The notes below the pieces were generated by a model, which was not told the origin of the DNA, did no database searches, and saw nothing but the letters and a program-made list of their open reading frames with translations. From Geobacter sp. (GTDB taxonomy: Bacteria; Desulfobacterota; Desulfuromonadia; Geobacterales; Pseudopelobacteraceae), in the NCBI GenBank assembly GCA_025360785.1, contig JANYBN010000206.1, forward strand, positions 1-45,311: a DNA stretch of 45,311 nucleotides. Reading direction: 5' to 3'. Position numbers and translations under genes: made by a program. Below are positions 16,170 through 31,716 of this stretch, one piece after another (the first letter of the stretch is position 1; each line of letters begins with the position of its first letter).

Positions 16170-16243
16170 GGCGCGTTATCCAAGAGGCTAGGAGCCGGTC
16201 TGCAAAACCGTTAACGTCGGTTCGAATCCGACACGCGCCTCCA
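16170..16243 (+). tRNA. tRNA-Cys (GCA)
   Basis: Acceptor strands GGCGCGT (16170-16176) and ACGCGCC (16233-16239) pair perfectly. Discriminator T16240, typical of tRNA-Cys, precedes an encoded CCA at 16241-16243. The anticodon loop CTGCAAA carries GCA at 16202-16204 (reads UGY). The T arm has GGTTCGAATCC. A promoter upstream and a terminator 21 bases downstream make it a single-gene unit. Confidence 0.96.
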
Positions 16244-16263: not shown

Positions 16264-16293
16264 AAAAGGCCATGCTTTTCAGCATGGCCTTTT
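16264..16293 (+). terminator. Bidirectional terminator between tRNA-Cys and the cytochrome operon
   Basis: AAAAGGCCATGC (16264-16275) pairs with GCATGGCCTTTT (16282-16293) around TTTTCA. With A's on one side and T's on the other it can act in both directions, ending tRNA-Cys on plus and the five-gene cytochrome operon on minus. Confidence 0.88.
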
Positions 16294-16329: not shown

Positions 16330-16692
16330 CTATTTGGCGTTCTCATCCAGAAAGTAATTAAGTAAAACGACAACATCCCTAATTTCTTTCTTATTCATAT
16401 CCGAATTCGGTTTACGGAGCATCTTTATCCCATAAGCTTTGACTGCCTGCTTGTTAAACGGCTGCCCTGTTATGGGTGCCCTGCCCGTTTGAATAGCAAT
16501 AACAGTACGCTCCATCGTATGGCACTTGACGCATTTTACTAACATGAGGTTAAAGGACGGCTTGTACATTTCAGGAATACCTTCAGAACTAAAGTTCATT
16601 TTAGCGCCACGCCCAGCAACCTTTATTCGTGCTTCAGCTATCGAATAGACAAAAATTGTTAAAAGCACTGCCAGAGTTACATACCTTTTCAT
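16330..16692 (-). CDS. Small periplasmic monoheme c-type cytochrome
   Basis: A 120-residue protein with AAGGAG ahead of ATG 16692. A signal peptide covers about residues 1-21 (hydrophobic 5-17, then AEA). One heme motif C54-V-K-C57-H58 follows. Methionines at M50, M60, M94 and M99 are candidate axial ligands. The C-terminal half ends in a helical KEIRDVVVLLNYFLDEN, typical of class I-like cytochromes. It is the last gene of the operon, 75 bases after the cytochrome-porin gene, and may shuttle electrons in the periplasm between the inner membrane and the outer-membrane complex. The role is inferred from context. Confidence 0.85.
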   Translation of the reverse strand: MKRYVTLAVLLTIFVYSIAEARIKVAGRGAKMNFSSEGIPEMYKPSFNLMLVKCVKCHTMERTVIAIQTGRAPITGQPFNKQAVKAYGIKMLRKPNSDMNKKEIRDVVVLLNYFLDENAK

Positions 16693-16767
16693 AATAGCTC
16701 CTTAAAACGTATTCAATTGCTTTGAAGTATAAGAGTACGAAAACTTATCCAGTAAAGTTCATAAGAG

Positions 16768-18270
16768 TTAGAAACTAAAGGTGACGCCAAGAGTTCCGAT
16801 CTGATTGGCTATCTCGGTGGCTCCTGTAGTTTTGTAGGAAGTTCCGTACTCATGTTTATACTCAGCCGCAACCTTAACATTTTCGATCGGGGCATACGCC
16901 AGGGTCGGAATAAAACGACGAACGATGTTAGAACCGTCATCCTGGTACTCGAAACGGAGCGAACCGATCAGATTCTGCAGAATCGTATACTCGCCCTCAA
17001 CAGCTGCAACATAAGTTTTTACTGGCGGCAGCGAATACGATAAAGCCGGATTATCATCATTTCCAATAACGCCCGACAACTTCAGTCTGAACAGTTTATA
17101 GAGCAAATCGATGTCCACCCCGGTGCGATAAAAATCGTTTTGACGAGGGGTTACCCCTGCGACAGTATTAGGATCGCCATTCGTTCCTACGTAGCCATAT
17201 CCACCGACAGTAAGTGTCAAATAATCAAAAACACTTTCTTCCTTGTTGAGATCTATTTCCGGCTCATTTACAAGATAATCAGCACCTCCAAACTTCACGG
17301 ATGCATGAGTATACCATTCTTTGGTATTCTGATTTTTACGGTTAACCACCCCCCCCGCCAAGAAGAGACGGTTGGCAATAATCATGTTAGCCTCAACGGC
17401 ATCCTGTGGTTGCTCAAGTTTGAATAAAGATTCGCCAACAGTGTAAGAGTAGGTTGCATAGGAATTGGTGGTAGACAGCTTATTGTTAGACTTCCAGAGA
17501 CCAAGCTTCGGCTGTAATCTTCCCACTTTAATATTGATCGGTGATTCAAAGAGATGCCGCCATATCAGAAAGAGTTCTCCAATATCGTTCTTAACAGTCA
17601 AATTGGTAGGTGTTTGTGAAGTATTGTTAGTTGCAGCTACATTCTCAGTGTACACGAGATAGGTGCCAAAGAAACCGGCCTTTTCCTTGAAATTCCCACC
17701 GGCATTGAGTTTAAGAGATCGGGTAGAAAAATCAAACTCATTAATGGCATCTTTATTATAGGTCCCATGAAGATTGGCGGTAAATGAGATGGGCAGCTGA
17801 TCCGGCACCCCCGAAAGGGCAATCCCCTCTGACTTGGCTTCACCAACTACAGCAACGTGACTGCTCTCAGCATCAGCAACTGGTACTGTAGTAGCGGCAG
17901 TTAACGCAGGAGCATCGGCCGAAACCATCATTCCAGCTTTAAGCTTACTCAGCAAATCTGCATTGCCGTCGCCTTTTACAATATTGCTATCAACAGGAAG
18001 CGCAGCAGACTTTGCCTCAACTGTAGCGGGAACTGGCTTAGCCTTTTCTGCAGATTTCTTTTTACCTTTCCCAAAGTAAACATACCCGTTTTTAAGAAAC
18101 GCCTCGCCATACTCGTTAAGTTCTGGAAAGATCGTATGGCAGGTGCTGCACTCAACGTTATTGGCGCGGGTGAAGGCTGGGATGGCGTAGACATCGCTTG
18201 CTGCCAATATCACGGACACAATTAACAATAACAACAAGTTGATGTTAATGCTATGACGAGCAAAGTTCAT
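16768..18270 (-). CDS. Cyc2-like monoheme cytochrome fused to an outer-membrane beta-barrel
   Basis: A 500-residue protein with AAGGAG before ATG 18270. The signal peptide is about 1-29 (VYA before IPAF). The mature N-terminus IPAFTRANNVECSTCHTIFP has a single heme motif C41-x2-C44-H45, followed by ELNEYGEAFLKNGYVY, which matches the pattern of Cyc2-type cytochrome-porins (PxFARxxxxxCxxCH...FGxxFKxNGY). A linker rich in Ala, Lys and Val (about 66-150) precedes a long run of alternating beta strands ending in Phe (GTLGVTFSF), the standard outer-membrane barrel end. Cyc2 proteins pass electrons across the outer membrane in Fe(II) oxidisers. Here it follows a multiheme lipoprotein gene by 21 bases, suggesting one complex. 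Family resemblance is seen; direction of electron flow is unknown. Confidence 0.8.
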   Translation of the reverse strand: MNFARHSININLLLLLIVSVILAASDVYAIPAFTRANNVECSTCHTIFPELNEYGEAFLKNGYVYFGKGKKKSAEKAKPVPATVEAKSAALPVDSNIVKGDGNADLLSKLKAGMMVSADAPALTAATTVPVADAESSHVAVVGEAKSEGIALSGVPDQLPISFTANLHGTYNKDAINEFDFSTRSLKLNAGGNFKEKAGFFGTYLVYTENVAATNNTSQTPTNLTVKNDIGELFLIWRHLFESPINIKVGRLQPKLGLWKSNNKLSTTNSYATYSYTVGESLFKLEQPQDAVEANMIIANRLFLAGGVVNRKNQNTKEWYTHASVKFGGADYLVNEPEIDLNKEESVFDYLTLTVGGYGYVGTNGDPNTVAGVTPRQNDFYRTGVDIDLLYKLFRLKLSGVIGNDDNPALSYSLPPVKTYVAAVEGEYTILQNLIGSLRFEYQDDGSNIVRRFIPTLAYAPIENVKVAAEYKHEYGTSYKTTGATEIANQIGTLGVTFSF

Positions 18271-18291
18271 CTTTGTTCTCCTTGTAACATA

Positions 18292-19974
18292 TTAGTAGCG
18301 TTCAGCAGATGTGCCAATGTTATACGTGGTTCCATCCGCCTGCGTAGTTATAATGTACTTTAACGTCTCTGCTTTAAAATCCGTATTTCCAGTTCCGGGT
18401 AGCGCATTCAAAGATGTGCTTACCGAATAATTCATATTATTATCATCCAGCCAGTCAATGGCATCGTAAATTAATCGGCGTGTATAATAACTGTTGTGAG
18501 CCACCCCGCCTTTATCATGAATAAGCAGATTATAATTGAATGCAGCCCCCATGTTGTTCTTGGCTGAAACAGACCTATCTGCCTCAGCGCCACCCACTGA
18601 ATACCATTTCCATTGAGCATTGGTCATAACGGATTCGGCGGCCGAAAGTACTCCATCACCATCGGAATCGATAAAAAAGTAGGGATTACTTGAATTGTAA
18701 TAAAGCTTACGATATTGGTTGTTTGCAAGATAATACTTAAGTGCCAAAAGAGCAGCCTTGTAACGGGGTTTCCACGTAACATCAATCAAGGTGCGGTCAG
18801 TAGCCACATCGTGACACCCTGATGTTGTACAAGTTGGACTTAACGATGCCCCGGTTACGATATAAGGCTTGAGTGTGTGTTTTTCACCAGGCTGTGTCTT
18901 GTTGGCAAGGTGGCAACCTACACATGGACCTTTAGTGCTTTCAGCCGCTGAATTGCCACGGGAATCGTTTGTGCCTATGTAGCGATGATTATAGACTGCA
19001 GGATCGGAATAAACGCGCCCCGCATATTCAAAGCCAATCTTTCCGAACACAATGCCGCCGGCTGCCAGATAATGTGAGTTTACAAATGGCACCCCGGTAT
19101 AGTTATTCATAGCAATTACGCTTGCTCCGCTTTCACGGCCAACATGGCAGTTGAGGCAGAGATTTGAAGTACCGACATTCGAATAGGTTACTTCGCCGCC
19201 GGTGTATTTGGCTTTTACCTGATTTGCAGAGCGAAGTGCATAGCTGTAATTGATATGACATGCGTTGCATCCGAGCATTTCCTTGGTTGTGTCTGAAGCG
19301 CTTCCCCATGCTGTTGAGTCACCTGTGGTTATGTATTTAATGAAACCTGTTGTAGTGTGGCAACGGTTACATTCTCCTGTTATTGATTTGAAGTCATAAT
19401 AATTCCATGGTGACGCACCAGTACTACCATGACCTGAACGCGCCCATGCCCGCAGCGTGTCCAATTTACCGATTGTGTCGTGCGGATTATGGCAGTCACG
19501 GCATTTACCTACGTATTTGGAGCTAACATATGAACTTAATGTTTTGCTGAAATGTGAGGTGAGGGTGTTTCTAGTGACACCGTTATGGGTTGAGAACCCA
19601 AAACCTGCCTTTGCTGTGTGACATTTGGCGCATTTCCCTGATTCATCCGGGTTATGGACGACAGAGCTCACTGATGACCCACTTGGAGTGCCGCCATGGC
19701 ATAGGTTACAGCTTGATGGATGACCTGTATCAGGCTCATGGCAATCAGCGCATCCAGCCCAGTTTCCAAGGTTGTGGGATGATAGTTTCCACTCTTCTGC
19801 AATCAGTTTTGCCGTCACTGGAGAGCGTACGCTTTCATGACACCCGAGGCAGGTTTCTGATGCTTCCGCACGAGTTGTTGACGATGCTGTTCCAGTTTTT
19901 TCGCCACAACCTGAGAGTGCAACAGCCATAAATGTGACTAAGATCACCATAAGAGTTTTTTTACAAATAAGCAT
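18292..19974 (-). CDS. Multiheme c-type cytochrome lipoprotein (ten heme motifs)
   Basis: A 560-residue protein with GGGAGA before ATG 19974. A lipoprotein signal ends at L20-S21-G22-C23. Nine CXXCH motifs are visible, with first Cys at 42, 75, 89, 115, 158, 202, 236, 273 and 351. A tenth site has the wider form C382-x4-C387-H388. Extra histidines (67, 130, 141, 182, 301, 330, 366) could give bis-His ligation. Residues 436-447 (D-S-D-G-D-G-V-L-S-A-A-E) form a canonical EF-hand calcium loop in the heme-free C-terminal third. I do not recognise it as a named Omc protein. It is probably an outer-membrane-anchored electron carrier partnering the cytochrome-porin encoded next. Confidence 0.88.
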   Translation of the reverse strand: MLICKKTLMVILVTFMAVALSGCGEKTGTASSTTRAEASETCLGCHESVRSPVTAKLIAEEWKLSSHNLGNWAGCADCHEPDTGHPSSCNLCHGGTPSGSSVSSVVHNPDESGKCAKCHTAKAGFGFSTHNGVTRNTLTSHFSKTLSSYVSSKYVGKCRDCHNPHDTIGKLDTLRAWARSGHGSTGASPWNYYDFKSITGECNRCHTTTGFIKYITTGDSTAWGSASDTTKEMLGCNACHINYSYALRSANQVKAKYTGGEVTYSNVGTSNLCLNCHVGRESGASVIAMNNYTGVPFVNSHYLAAGGIVFGKIGFEYAGRVYSDPAVYNHRYIGTNDSRGNSAAESTKGPCVGCHLANKTQPGEKHTLKPYIVTGASLSPTCTTSGCHDVATDRTLIDVTWKPRYKAALLALKYYLANNQYRKLYYNSSNPYFFIDSDGDGVLSAAESVMTNAQWKWYSVGGAEADRSVSAKNNMGAAFNYNLLIHDKGGVAHNSYYTRRLIYDAIDWLDDNNMNYSVSTSLNALPGTGNTDFKAETLKYIITTQADGTTYNIGTSAERY

Positions 19975-20014
19975 ACAATCTCCCTACGAAGGTAGAGCCT
20001 AAACCTGTGTCATT

Positions 20015-20764
20015 TTATTTCAGCAGTTTATACATATAAGCAAACGCGCCACCGACCGATATACTGGACATAATACCGGCATAGCGCATCACATCCCTCG
20101 ATAGCTGAACACGACCTATGTACTCTTCGATATCTGATGTTTCTTCAGTCATGATCGCAATAATATCCTGCCAGTCCTGATCCCACTGAAATATCTGCAG
20201 ATACAGGTCAGAACCTCTCCAAAGAAAAATACATATAAAGACGATCCCAAAAGCAATAAACCCCTTTGAGATATCAGAGTCCTTGATAGCGCTGTAAATT
20301 TTCCTGATAAGCTCAAGATTCATAACACAGAGAAACACCCAGATTGCATTTTCAACCATCTTTAAATTTCTAATTGTATTTGGACTCGGGGTCGGGTTAA
20401 TCAAAAGAAATATTCCGGAAAACGCCAAAATGGCGATTGTACTCAAGTATACGATAAGCTTGTTCCCTGATATTTCAAACGTACGGCAGAAAACATAATA
20501 TTCGAGAAACCCGTGAGTAATAGTCATAATAGCCACGGTACCAACGATATAGTGATAAGCTGTAAGCTTCTGATAGTGCCCCCACGGGTTAATGCCGTAA
20601 ACCTGGCTTATAAAGATCAGAAAGAATCCAATCGAGATACTTGTCCAGACGCGAGCATTTCCAATACTGAAGTAAAAACTGATTGCCCCGGCCAGCCCCC
20701 AGAAAACAACCTGGACGAGGTCAAGCGGATTCATTTGGGTCAGCAGTTCAAAAAACTTTTCCAT
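20015..20764 (-). CDS. Integral membrane protein in cytochrome operon, unknown function
   Basis: A 249-residue protein with TGGAGGA before ATG 20764. About seven hydrophobic segments are visible (approx. 16-34, 38-56, 72-90, 100-121, 135-150, 165-185 and 226-246). An acidic loop DQDWQDIIAIMTEETSDIEEY lies before the last. Histidines H63, H71 and H84 cluster near one side of helices 2-3 and could bind heme or a metal, but this is speculative. No family was recognised. Its place between a PATAN-like gene and the multiheme cytochrome gene suggests a membrane partner, perhaps a quinone-linked electron donor or a sensor. Confidence 0.65.
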   Translation of the reverse strand: MEKFFELLTQMNPLDLVQVVFWGLAGAISFYFSIGNARVWTSISIGFFLIFISQVYGINPWGHYQKLTAYHYIVGTVAIMTITHGFLEYYVFCRTFEISGNKLIVYLSTIAILAFSGIFLLINPTPSPNTIRNLKMVENAIWVFLCVMNLELIRKIYSAIKDSDISKGFIAFGIVFICIFLWRGSDLYLQIFQWDQDWQDIIAIMTEETSDIEEYIGRVQLSRDVMRYAGIMSSISVGGAFAYMYKLLK

Positions 20765-20791
20765 TATATCCTCCAGTGCGTAACGATAAAA

Positions 20792-21757
20792 TTAGAATTC
20801 AGATTTGGCAGTGGAAATTGCAGTTGAAAGCTTCTCCATCATCAACTTGATATTTGTGCCGCTGACAAGTAGCTTTGCTGCTTTCTCTACACCCTTCACG
20901 AATTTTTCAGCCCCATCAGCATCTATAAGGCAGGTATTCCCACCATTATCTGAAAGTTCCTTATCAACAAGTCCTCGACCGACTTTGCCCACATACTCGC
21001 CGACGATTGACTTAACCAGCTCTTCCAACTCGGAAAGTTTCTGAGACGTAACTTTTTTGTCACGCTCCTGACGTTCGAGATTTGTTTTGTCGATATCGAA
21101 TTTATGTAGAGCAACGCAGTTATCCCATATCTTTTGAATATTTGTAACTTCCAGCAGGTTTGTCCCCATCAACTCATCGGCACTTTGAGTAGAAAACAGG
21201 TCAATCTTTGCGCCAGGCAAACCGGCTATTTTTTGTGATTCCGTAGATGATGTTTCAATATCACTGGAACCGTCATGGAAAAAGCCCAGCGGATTTCCAT
21301 CTTTATAAAATATCATGGCTGAATGTTCATCAGTATAGATGCGCAGGCAGCCATTCATATGGTCCTCTTTAACCTTTTCAAGCAAAGTCTTAATATCTAT
21401 AAGCTTTAGCTCTTGGGCTTTGTAGAGTATTTCACCTTCCAAGAGGGCATGAATGCACATGGTTAGATCTTTGGAAAGCTTGTAAACATTCAAGGCACCA
21501 CTACCCGTAGTAACCATTAGCTCCGCCAGCGCAGAAAGAGCTTCGAAGCCGGCTTCTTTCTTACCATTCTGCCCTTCAACAAGGGCACTGACCAATTTTC
21601 CTGATTCAAACACCAAAATGGCAGTGCTGGACTGAAATACAAAACTCGCATATCCAGTGAACGCTCCATTAGTGAGCTTTGCTAAAACATCTGGTAATTT
21701 CAGCTTCGAAACTGCCAGATTTTCAAACAGCGGATTTCCCTTGGGAAGAAGGAACAT
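20792..21757 (-). CDS. PATAN/DUF4388-like protein, first gene of the cytochrome operon
   Basis: A 321-residue soluble protein with AGGAGG before ATG 21757. Two similar modules are visible: about 20-110 (LTNGAFTGYASF, STAILVFESGKLVSA, GFEALSALAEL) and about 120-195 (MNGCLRIYTDEHSAMIFYKDGNPLGFFHDGS). The pattern of a short G-containing turn, a strand pair with F(E/K)xGxxx, then a helix and a threshold-like segment resembles the PATAN (DUF4388) domain used in deltaproteobacterial signalling. The C-terminal part (about 225-321) is helical and charged. The domain call is by eye and moderate. It leads the operon, so it may be a regulator or adaptor of the electron-transfer genes. Confidence 0.6.
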   Translation of the reverse strand: MFLLPKGNPLFENLAVSKLKLPDVLAKLTNGAFTGYASFVFQSSTAILVFESGKLVSALVEGQNGKKEAGFEALSALAELMVTTGSGALNVYKLSKDLTMCIHALLEGEILYKAQELKLIDIKTLLEKVKEDHMNGCLRIYTDEHSAMIFYKDGNPLGFFHDGSSDIETSSTESQKIAGLPGAKIDLFSTQSADELMGTNLLEVTNIQKIWDNCVALHKFDIDKTNLERQERDKKVTSQKLSELEELVKSIVGEYVGKVGRGLVDKELSDNGGNTCLIDADGAEKFVKGVEKAAKLLVSGTNIKLMMEKLSTAISTAKSEF

Positions 21758-30885: not shown

Positions 30886-31716
30886 ATGGCGATAGTTAAT
30901 CATGCAAAAAAAGAGATCAACGCCAAGATTGTCTATTACGGACCGGCTGGAAGCGGGAAAAGTACTGCTCTCACCTACATTTACTCACGGATAAAGCCCT
31001 CCCTGCGCGGCGATTTAAAGAGTGTCCCAGCTGGTGCTGACAATCTGCAGTTCTTCGATTTCAGTCCGTTTGAGACGCCGCTGCCGAACGGTTACCATGT
31101 CCGTTTACATGTCTACACACTTAGCGGAATCGTCACTAATCCGGCAACCTGGAAAATGACACTCAAGGGTGCCGACGGAATTATAATCATGGCTAATCCG
31201 GCGACTGATCACGCTGCTGAAACCAGGGAGAGCGTGTCACAATTGCGGGATTTTCTGTCTGCATATGGAGTCGGACTTCACGAAACACCTGCCGTTCTGC
31301 AGTTTAACAGTTTTACCTCGGGAAACAACCCTGCTGAAGTGACCGCTACGACTGCATCCCTCGATCTTTCCCAGTTGTCGGTCTGTAGTTCTAACGCTGC
31401 CAACGGGGAGGGTCTTCTTGAGGCTTTGACAACGCTTTCTCGTCAGGTACTCGACCGGGTCACGGTGATGAGTGAGCCGTCAGAAACGAGCATTGTTCCA
31501 TACCCATCTTCAGAGACTGAAACTATTGCAGCAGACCGATTTGATAAGTCAGCGGACCCTCACCAGGTCATGCCCCATACTGTAGATTCACCGCAGGTCG
31601 CCTTATTATCACAAGAGGTCGTTTACGAGGGCGGAACGGTAAGAATTCCCCTGGATATCACGCATGGCGGCTTACTCCGCAGACTCATTATTACGGTAAA
31701 TGTCGAATTGGAATAG
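30886..31716 (+). CDS. MglA-like P-loop protein with degenerate GTPase motifs
   Basis: A 276-residue protein with about 195 residues of small-GTPase fold and an extra C-terminal part. The P-loop is intact: GPAGSGKST at 19-27. Elements of the MglA group are recognisable (NAKIVYYGPAGSGKSTALTYIYSRI; RLHVYTLSG; LKGADGIIIMANPA). Where MglA has LYTVPGQV the sequence has VYTLSGIV. Where the NKRD guanine-specificity motif is expected it reads LQFNSFTS, so base selectivity is doubtful. The C-terminal tail (about 200-276) is Ser/Thr-rich, then beta-like. Sits 19 bases after the HEAT-like gene. It may bind NTP as a switch or be a pseudo-GTPase. Confidence 0.75.
   Translation: MAIVNHAKKEINAKIVYYGPAGSGKSTALTYIYSRIKPSLRGDLKSVPAGADNLQFFDFSPFETPLPNGYHVRLHVYTLSGIVTNPATWKMTLKGADGIIIMANPATDHAAETRESVSQLRDFLSAYGVGLHETPAVLQFNSFTSGNNPAEVTATTASLDLSQLSVCSSNAANGEGLLEALTTLSRQVLDRVTVMSEPSETSIVPYPSSETETIAADRFDKSADPHQVMPHTVDSPQVALLSQEVVYEGGTVRIPLDITHGGLLRRLIITVNVELE

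Follow-up and report, generated by a model that had tools for sequence, protein, structure and literature searches.

How might electrons cross an outer membrane by way of a barrel protein that carries a single heme of its own? The question is raised by five minus-strand genes, here g1 to g5 in reading order, on a 45,311-nucleotide stretch from Geobacter sp. (GenBank assembly GCA_025360785.1, contig JANYBN010000206.1; contig G000:C117 of the 3.9-Mb genome), the whole of which is called the window below and whose relatives here are Geobacterales. Three of the genes, encoding a decaheme lipoprotein (g3), a predicted barrel with a single-heme cytochrome fused to it (g4) and an exported monoheme cytochrome (g5), are the core across the Geobacterales, and it can be proposed with moderate confidence that they form an outer-membrane electron conduit, probably directed outward, in which the heme is tethered and the surface cytochrome can be swapped. 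The other two, encoding a PATAN protein (g1) and a seven-helix membrane protein (g2), are a separable module of their own that is attached to g3-g5 in one clade. A preliminary description made from the sequence had seen in all five a distinct set; this holds for the conserved g3-g4-g5, which differs from the separate-porin conduits of Geobacter, and fails for the separable PATAN and seven-transmembrane (7TM) pair.

Table 1. Features of the g1-g5 locus and its downstream border (window coordinates)
Feature	Coordinates	Strand	Description
g1	20792..21757	-	321-residue PATAN/DUF4388 protein, first gene of the putative operon
g2	20015..20764	-	249-residue seven-helix membrane protein
g3	18292..19974	-	560-residue decaheme c-type lipoprotein
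g4	16768..18270	-	500-residue monoheme cytochrome fused to a predicted barrel
g5	16330..16692	-	120-residue exported monoheme cytochrome
12-bp perfect inverted repeat	16264..16293		read by eye; between g5 and tRNA-Cys
tRNA-Cys(GCA)	16170..16243	+	ARAGORN, Rfam; convergent neighbor, outside the system

Conservation of the core was judged by scanning a single genome for each species, which yielded 53 loci of Geobacterales type and one from Nitrospina (the names of some of the metagenome-assembled genome (MAG) records are not reliable). In 51 of the 53, no more than 2.5 kb separates g3, on either strand, from g4, and one of the remaining two (L040) starts just before g4. A g5 gene stands beside g4 in 50, and the other three (L025, L047 and L065) stop at a contig end. 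In whole genomes g4 and g5 are within 2 kb of each other in 62 of 66 places (the window, split pieces and heme-domain-only matches being set aside), with three of the four exceptions at contig ends and the fourth, in G057, having a g5-like match 2.2 kb from g4. All five genes occur in the window's order in 17 of the 53 loci, which is what the synteny search that had been suggested for the five-gene set yielded, and together with the 62 of 66 pairings this means that the conservation of the gene set is more than chance. Matches of the g4 type (E <= 0.001) are present in 72 of 117 relatives, some as heme-domain pieces only, and in 36 of 48 Geobacteraceae genomes (31 of the 37 good ones; among the 36, G116 and G120 have short pieces only, and G116 is counted in the 31). 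Carriers include strains of Geomonas, Citrifermentans, Geotalea and Oryzomonas, and the system is thus experimentally accessible.

A tree of 51 g4 proteins (the 53 loci minus L065 and L067, which are cut or frame-split, L067 being too broken to place) puts all 18 rows that have an upstream 7TM gene in one 21-row group (100/100), which also holds L024, L036 and L039; of these, L024 keeps g3-g4-g5 at the shared site and lacks g1-g2. Outside this group g3 and g4-g5 mostly diverge, and g2, where present, is far away. Over the whole tree g3 is divergent in 25 of the 51 rows and on the same strand with no 7TM gene in six. The surroundings of the Geobacteraceae loci L041-L066, with genes named by eye, often include a methyl-accepting chemotaxis protein after g4-g5 (16 loci) and, farther along, trpA (15), folC (14) and an LptD-like gene (17).

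The g4 protein divides into a cytochrome domain (residues ~26-66), a linker (~68-150) and a barrel (161-499). Its single CXXCH, the CSTCH at residue 41, lies behind a hydrophobic leader, from which alone export is predicted, and one CXXCH is found in all 51 relatives. The AlphaFold2 (AF2) model, made with 67 sequences, has 16 long strands between residues 161 and 499 and an additional short hairpin at 275-284; its mean predicted local distance difference test score (pLDDT) is 68.6, with strand blocks mostly at 75-93 and the heme domain and linker mostly at 30-50. With these strands and a C-terminal Phe the barrel prediction did not fail, and the single-heme cytochrome fused to a beta-barrel that had been read from the letters stands as a prediction. 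Foldseek returned 233 matches to the model at E <= 0.001, porins among them, with Vibrio cholerae OmpT first, OprP (2o4v) third at E 7e-11 and OprO (4rjw) 13th. By sequence, PF07396 (Porin_O_P) matches 12 of 67 g4 relatives, the window protein not being one of them, and the g4 profile reaches OprO at E 0.004; the window sequence alone has no match among solved structures, and none among NCBIfam models, at E <= 1. A 16-strand outer-membrane barrel of OprO/OprP-like fold is accordingly what is predicted for g4.

How close is this to Cyc2? As defined in PMC8406198, Cyc2 is exported, has at least 365 residues, has a single N-terminal CXXCH preceded by AXPXFAR[Q/K][T/Y] and followed four residues later by PXL, and is fused to a 16-strand OprO/OprP-type barrel for which OprO and OprP are the named models; Fe(II) oxidation with a potential near +208 mV is described there (Keffer et al. 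2021). The window protein agrees in leader, heme number, length, predicted strands and PXL (CSTCHTIFPEL). It differs in the motif, of which the strict form is found in none of the 51 relatives (AIPAFTRAN in the window) and a relaxed AxPxFxR form in 50. A plasmid search with g4 found heme-domain matches in Methylocystis and Caballeronia proteins, both with the full motif, and the Caballeronia protein as query matched nine plasmid records, six of them new (Paraburkholderia, Ideonella, A. ferrooxidans, two Acidiphilium and Polymorphobacter). The full expression is passed by only two of six aligned Cyc2-type plasmid proteins, the AR[QK][TY] part is present by eye in three, and in the A. ferrooxidans and Polymorphobacter proteins the Arg is missing, again by eye. 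Because four of the six fail the same expression, its absence from g4 needs to be treated with caution.

Profile comparison (hhalign) of the Geobacterales g4 family with the six plasmid proteins gave 97.8% (E 7e-13) for whole proteins and 98.7% (E 1.7e-16) for heme domains alone, reversed controls giving E 0.04 (heme domain) and 0.5. One of the two fused cytochrome-barrel proteins in Nitrospina genome G137 (L102 and L103), that of L103, aligns with the g4 family over nearly its whole length (99.6%). As judged from these alignments, g4 is homologous to Cyc2, chiefly over the heme domain, and shares its architecture while lying outside the published motif, and as the motif is missing in 51 of 51 the name used here is Cyc2-like; the Cyc2 likeness in the preliminary description is in this sense supported. 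Cyc2 hits by hidden Markov model in Geobacter are already in print, FeGenie (PMC7005843) assigning cluster 3 cyc2 hits to G. sulfurreducens and G. bemidjiensis and naming a cyc2 for G. metallireducens too; these may or may not belong to the g4 family. Barrel-less relatives of the Cyc2-type heme domain also occur: L079 (G083) and L080 (G076), of the genus Geobacter, have open frames of 281 and 251 residues with the heme-domain motif and no barrel, sharing TTFA...MKCDxCH...PKLNEFG and, C-terminally, a stretch containing YKVPTRDGSxYFTDNPDRKG.

The partners on either side of the barrel protein are c-type cytochromes. g3 has nine CXXCH motifs and one CX4CH, the lipobox LSGC at residues 20-23 and a 46-bit match to PF14522, so that the ten-motif lipoprotein seen earlier is borne out; ten motifs are kept in 46 of 49 unsplit relatives. 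It is probably a surface cytochrome, a position predicted from these features. In the genome PF14537 has 22 matches on 11 contigs, four of them not above the cut-off. g5, the small monoheme cytochrome of the preliminary description, has one CXXCH and a leader for export judged by eye, and since its CXXCH and Met91 are invariant in all 52 aligned sequences, the window's included, its heme is likely His-Met ligated.

Two quantitative features bear on how the parts might work together. The first is the spacing between heme motif and barrel start, measured in 45 of the 51 g4 proteins (in six the expression missed the start motif). It amounts to 104-121 residues for the five-gene group, to 79-88 for Geotalea-like proteins and some others, and to 47-57 for those of Geomonas, Citrifermentans and a few MAGs; in the Caballeronia protein, the sole Cyc2-type one measured, it is 25, with the start chosen by eye. 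In the window protein the linker contains much Ala, Lys and Val; its low-confidence model is mostly devoid of secondary structure, and it may be flexible. The second feature is exchange of g3. In the ten loci that show the shared flanks (on the yebC side, with nadC/birA also visible in six), g1 is 70-90%, g2 77-88% and g5 73-85% identical to its window counterpart; g4 forms two classes (66-73% and 48-49%), and g3 lies at 27-39%. The g3 and g4 identities disagree between locus pairs (73% for g4 and 35% for g3 between the window and L021, 78% for g3 but 52% for g4 between L025 and L035), which by these comparisons makes g3 a gene exchanged independently of its neighbors at a fixed site. g4 itself seems to be replaced too, and because in the same set Spearman correlation with g4 identity is higher for g3 (0.52) than for g1, g2 and g5 (weak, 0.16-0.21), g3 and g4 appear partly to move together over a common chassis, though with no clean tracking. 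Among the open-licence papers listed by the literature searches, none was found to describe the 47-121-residue spacing, and none the independent g3 exchange.

In the proposed conduit g5 would carry electrons in the periplasm, and the barrel of g4 would sit in the outer membrane with its single-heme N-terminal domain hanging on the periplasmic side from the long linker. The tethered heme could be reduced by g5 and then move up to the mouth of the barrel or inside it, and the ten-heme g3 would receive the electrons and deliver them outside; g1-g2 may be a control or sensing module. Outward flow is the more likely direction because the host group consists of Fe(III) reducers, with kinship to Cyc2 leaving room for the inward one. 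The proposal is supported by the g4-g5 pairing, the nearby g3 with its ten heme motifs mostly kept, the barrel matches and the Cyc2-type homology of the heme domain, by the small c-type cytochrome gene that comes right after the fused gene in five of six Cyc2-type plasmid loci, by swapping of g3 while its neighbors stay, which is the pattern of surface lipoproteins in Geobacter conduits (PMC6148476, in its section on similar gene clusters), and, as a further item, by the PF14537 matches of the genome. Several observations pull the other way. The Cyc2 authors argue (PMC8406198) that one immobile heme does not reach across the membrane, and the proposal therefore depends on a tether that moves or on a g3 that is partly inserted; the gap might be bridged by motion of the tether, by g3 reaching into the barrel or by a small substrate entering the pore. 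The low pLDDT leaves the place of heme domain and linker unfixed by the model, the barrels alone resemble Cyc2-type barrels weakly in sequence (hhalign 48.5%, E 2e-4), a lipobox by itself is no proof of surface display, and the 1.2 kb visible upstream of g4 in L039 has no g3 match. Moreover, g5 accompanies g1-g2 with no full-length g4 in five genomes (G011, G021, G024, G042 and G045), and so is not only a g4 partner.

A more specific version, put forward tentatively, is that this is a new conduit design in which a barrel protein swings the heme that it bears, by way of a flexible tether, between g5 and a decaheme surface lipoprotein interchangeable from species to species, a Cyc2-type fused porin being run toward metal or electrode reduction with its membrane part constant. 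If true, it would add a single-heme, tethered route across the outer membrane. The presence of a fused cytochrome-porin is taken as a marker of Fe(II) oxidation, and, should the g4 system run outward, barrel type alone would not tell direction. The conduit itself, in this metal-respiring Geobacter relative, probably follows a plan best known from iron-oxidizing bacteria.

Comparison with established conduits sharpens what is different. MtrCAB and MtoAB combine a barrel with a decaheme cytochrome, as the g3-g4 pair does, and there MtrA or MtoA fills the barrel with ten hemes, whereas g4 has one and the decaheme g3 is a lipoprotein. Another likeness is that Mto operons encode MtoD, a periplasmic partner with one heme (PMC5566968). 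Porin-cytochrome conduits as delimited in PMC6148476 consist of an integral outer-membrane barrel, an outer-membrane lipoprotein with redox cofactors and a multiheme periplasmic cytochrome; g4 by prediction (AF2, Foldseek) corresponds to the first, g3 with its lipobox and ten heme motifs is a candidate for the second, and the cluster's only periplasmic candidate for the third, g5, is monoheme. OmbB-OmaB-OmcB, ExtABCD and ExtEFG (same source) share the barrel, the multiheme lipoprotein and non-orthologous replacement of the latter with the present set, and differ in having a multiheme periplasmic cytochrome and a separate porin. That the g4 barrel protein itself carries a heme, one of the claims made from the letters, is supported by its CXXCH and predicted strands. 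PgcA (PMC11520253), for which tethered-diffusion electron transfer by heme domains on flexible linkers is proposed, also has heme on a linker, and differs in being triheme with (PT)x linkers and no barrel.

Of the other explanations, electron uptake fares best, though it is rather unlikely: dissolved Fe(II) or another donor would be oxidized at the barrel heme and electrons would pass inward via g5, g3 collecting them from solids. The heme domain and barrel type of g4 are those of Cyc2, Fe(II) oxidase activity has been tested and found for one Cyc2 protein (PMC8406198), a small c-type cytochrome gene directly follows the fused gene in five of six Cyc2-type plasmid loci as g5 follows g4, and the FeGenie paper considers Fe(II) oxidation for the Geobacter cyc2 hits (PMC7005843). 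Set against this, the literature describes related isolates as reducing Fe(III), the strict motif is absent throughout, keeping in mind that some plasmid relatives of motif-bearing proteins also lack it, and the Cyc2 passages of PMC8406198 show no decaheme lipoprotein partner such as g4 has.

A heme-gated porin is less probable again. Small oxidants, such as oxyanions or chelated metals, would be reduced in the pore or the periplasm, with g3 merely supplying or accepting electrons at the surface. The resemblance of the barrel to OprO/OprP-like porins would fit, as would the association of another Geobacter barrel, ExtI, with selenite and tellurite (PMC6148476); the lack of an NCBIfam match for g4 and of any reductase gene among the open reading frames and Pfam matches of the cluster speaks against it.

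What remains is the role of g1-g2. The PATAN assignment of g1 is upheld by a PF14332 (DUF4388/PATAN) score of 27.7 bits, above the cut-off of 25, and the multispan nature of g2 by the seven long helices of its AF2 model (pLDDT 72, moderate), for which there is no Pfam or NCBIfam match at E <= 1; g2 identity is 70-90% in 21 aligned relatives. Of 62 places with g2, 21 are near g4 and g5, two near g4 only, six near g5 only and 33 near neither, and in fetched stretches the pair occurs with no cytochrome genes (L093, L094, L095 and L098) or with g5 and no g3-g4 (L089, L090 and L091). Being mostly away from g4 and g5, g1-g2 is a module of its own, and the idea that all five genes are the unit has to be given up, as PATAN-7TM stands alone in many genomes and g3-g5 also occurs without it. 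Redox sensing, in which g5 and g2 would report redox state to the PATAN protein with the conduit genes as co-regulated freight, draws on the g1-g2-g5 sets and the commonness of PATAN-7TM alone, and is the least probable reading since outside one clade g3-g4-g5 has no adjoining PATAN-7TM and g2 has no strictly conserved His ligand in aligned relatives. By eye, the pair sits after a malic-enzyme-like gene in L089, L090, L091 and L094.

In the window itself the genes are closely spaced, with gaps of 27, 40, 21 and 75 bases from g1 to g5 and an ATG start preceded by a Shine-Dalgarno-like stretch in each, just as first described. The terminator placed at the end of the putative operon is less secure: a perfect 12-bp hairpin accompanied by A and T runs can be read by eye and is possibly a bidirectional terminator between g5 and the tRNA-Cys gene, while a pattern scan of the window does not list it. 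That scan gave three terminator-like sites against 5.9 expected from shuffles and 13 promoter-like sites against 13.4, neither above chance, and so supports no promoter or terminator. At the contig end (42740-45148) an 802-residue protein resembles, by eye, a NuoB-NuoC-NuoD fusion. PATAN proteins and MglA-like small GTPases are often linked, and a small GTPase that is MglA-like by eye (30886-31716) is encoded on the same contig as g1.

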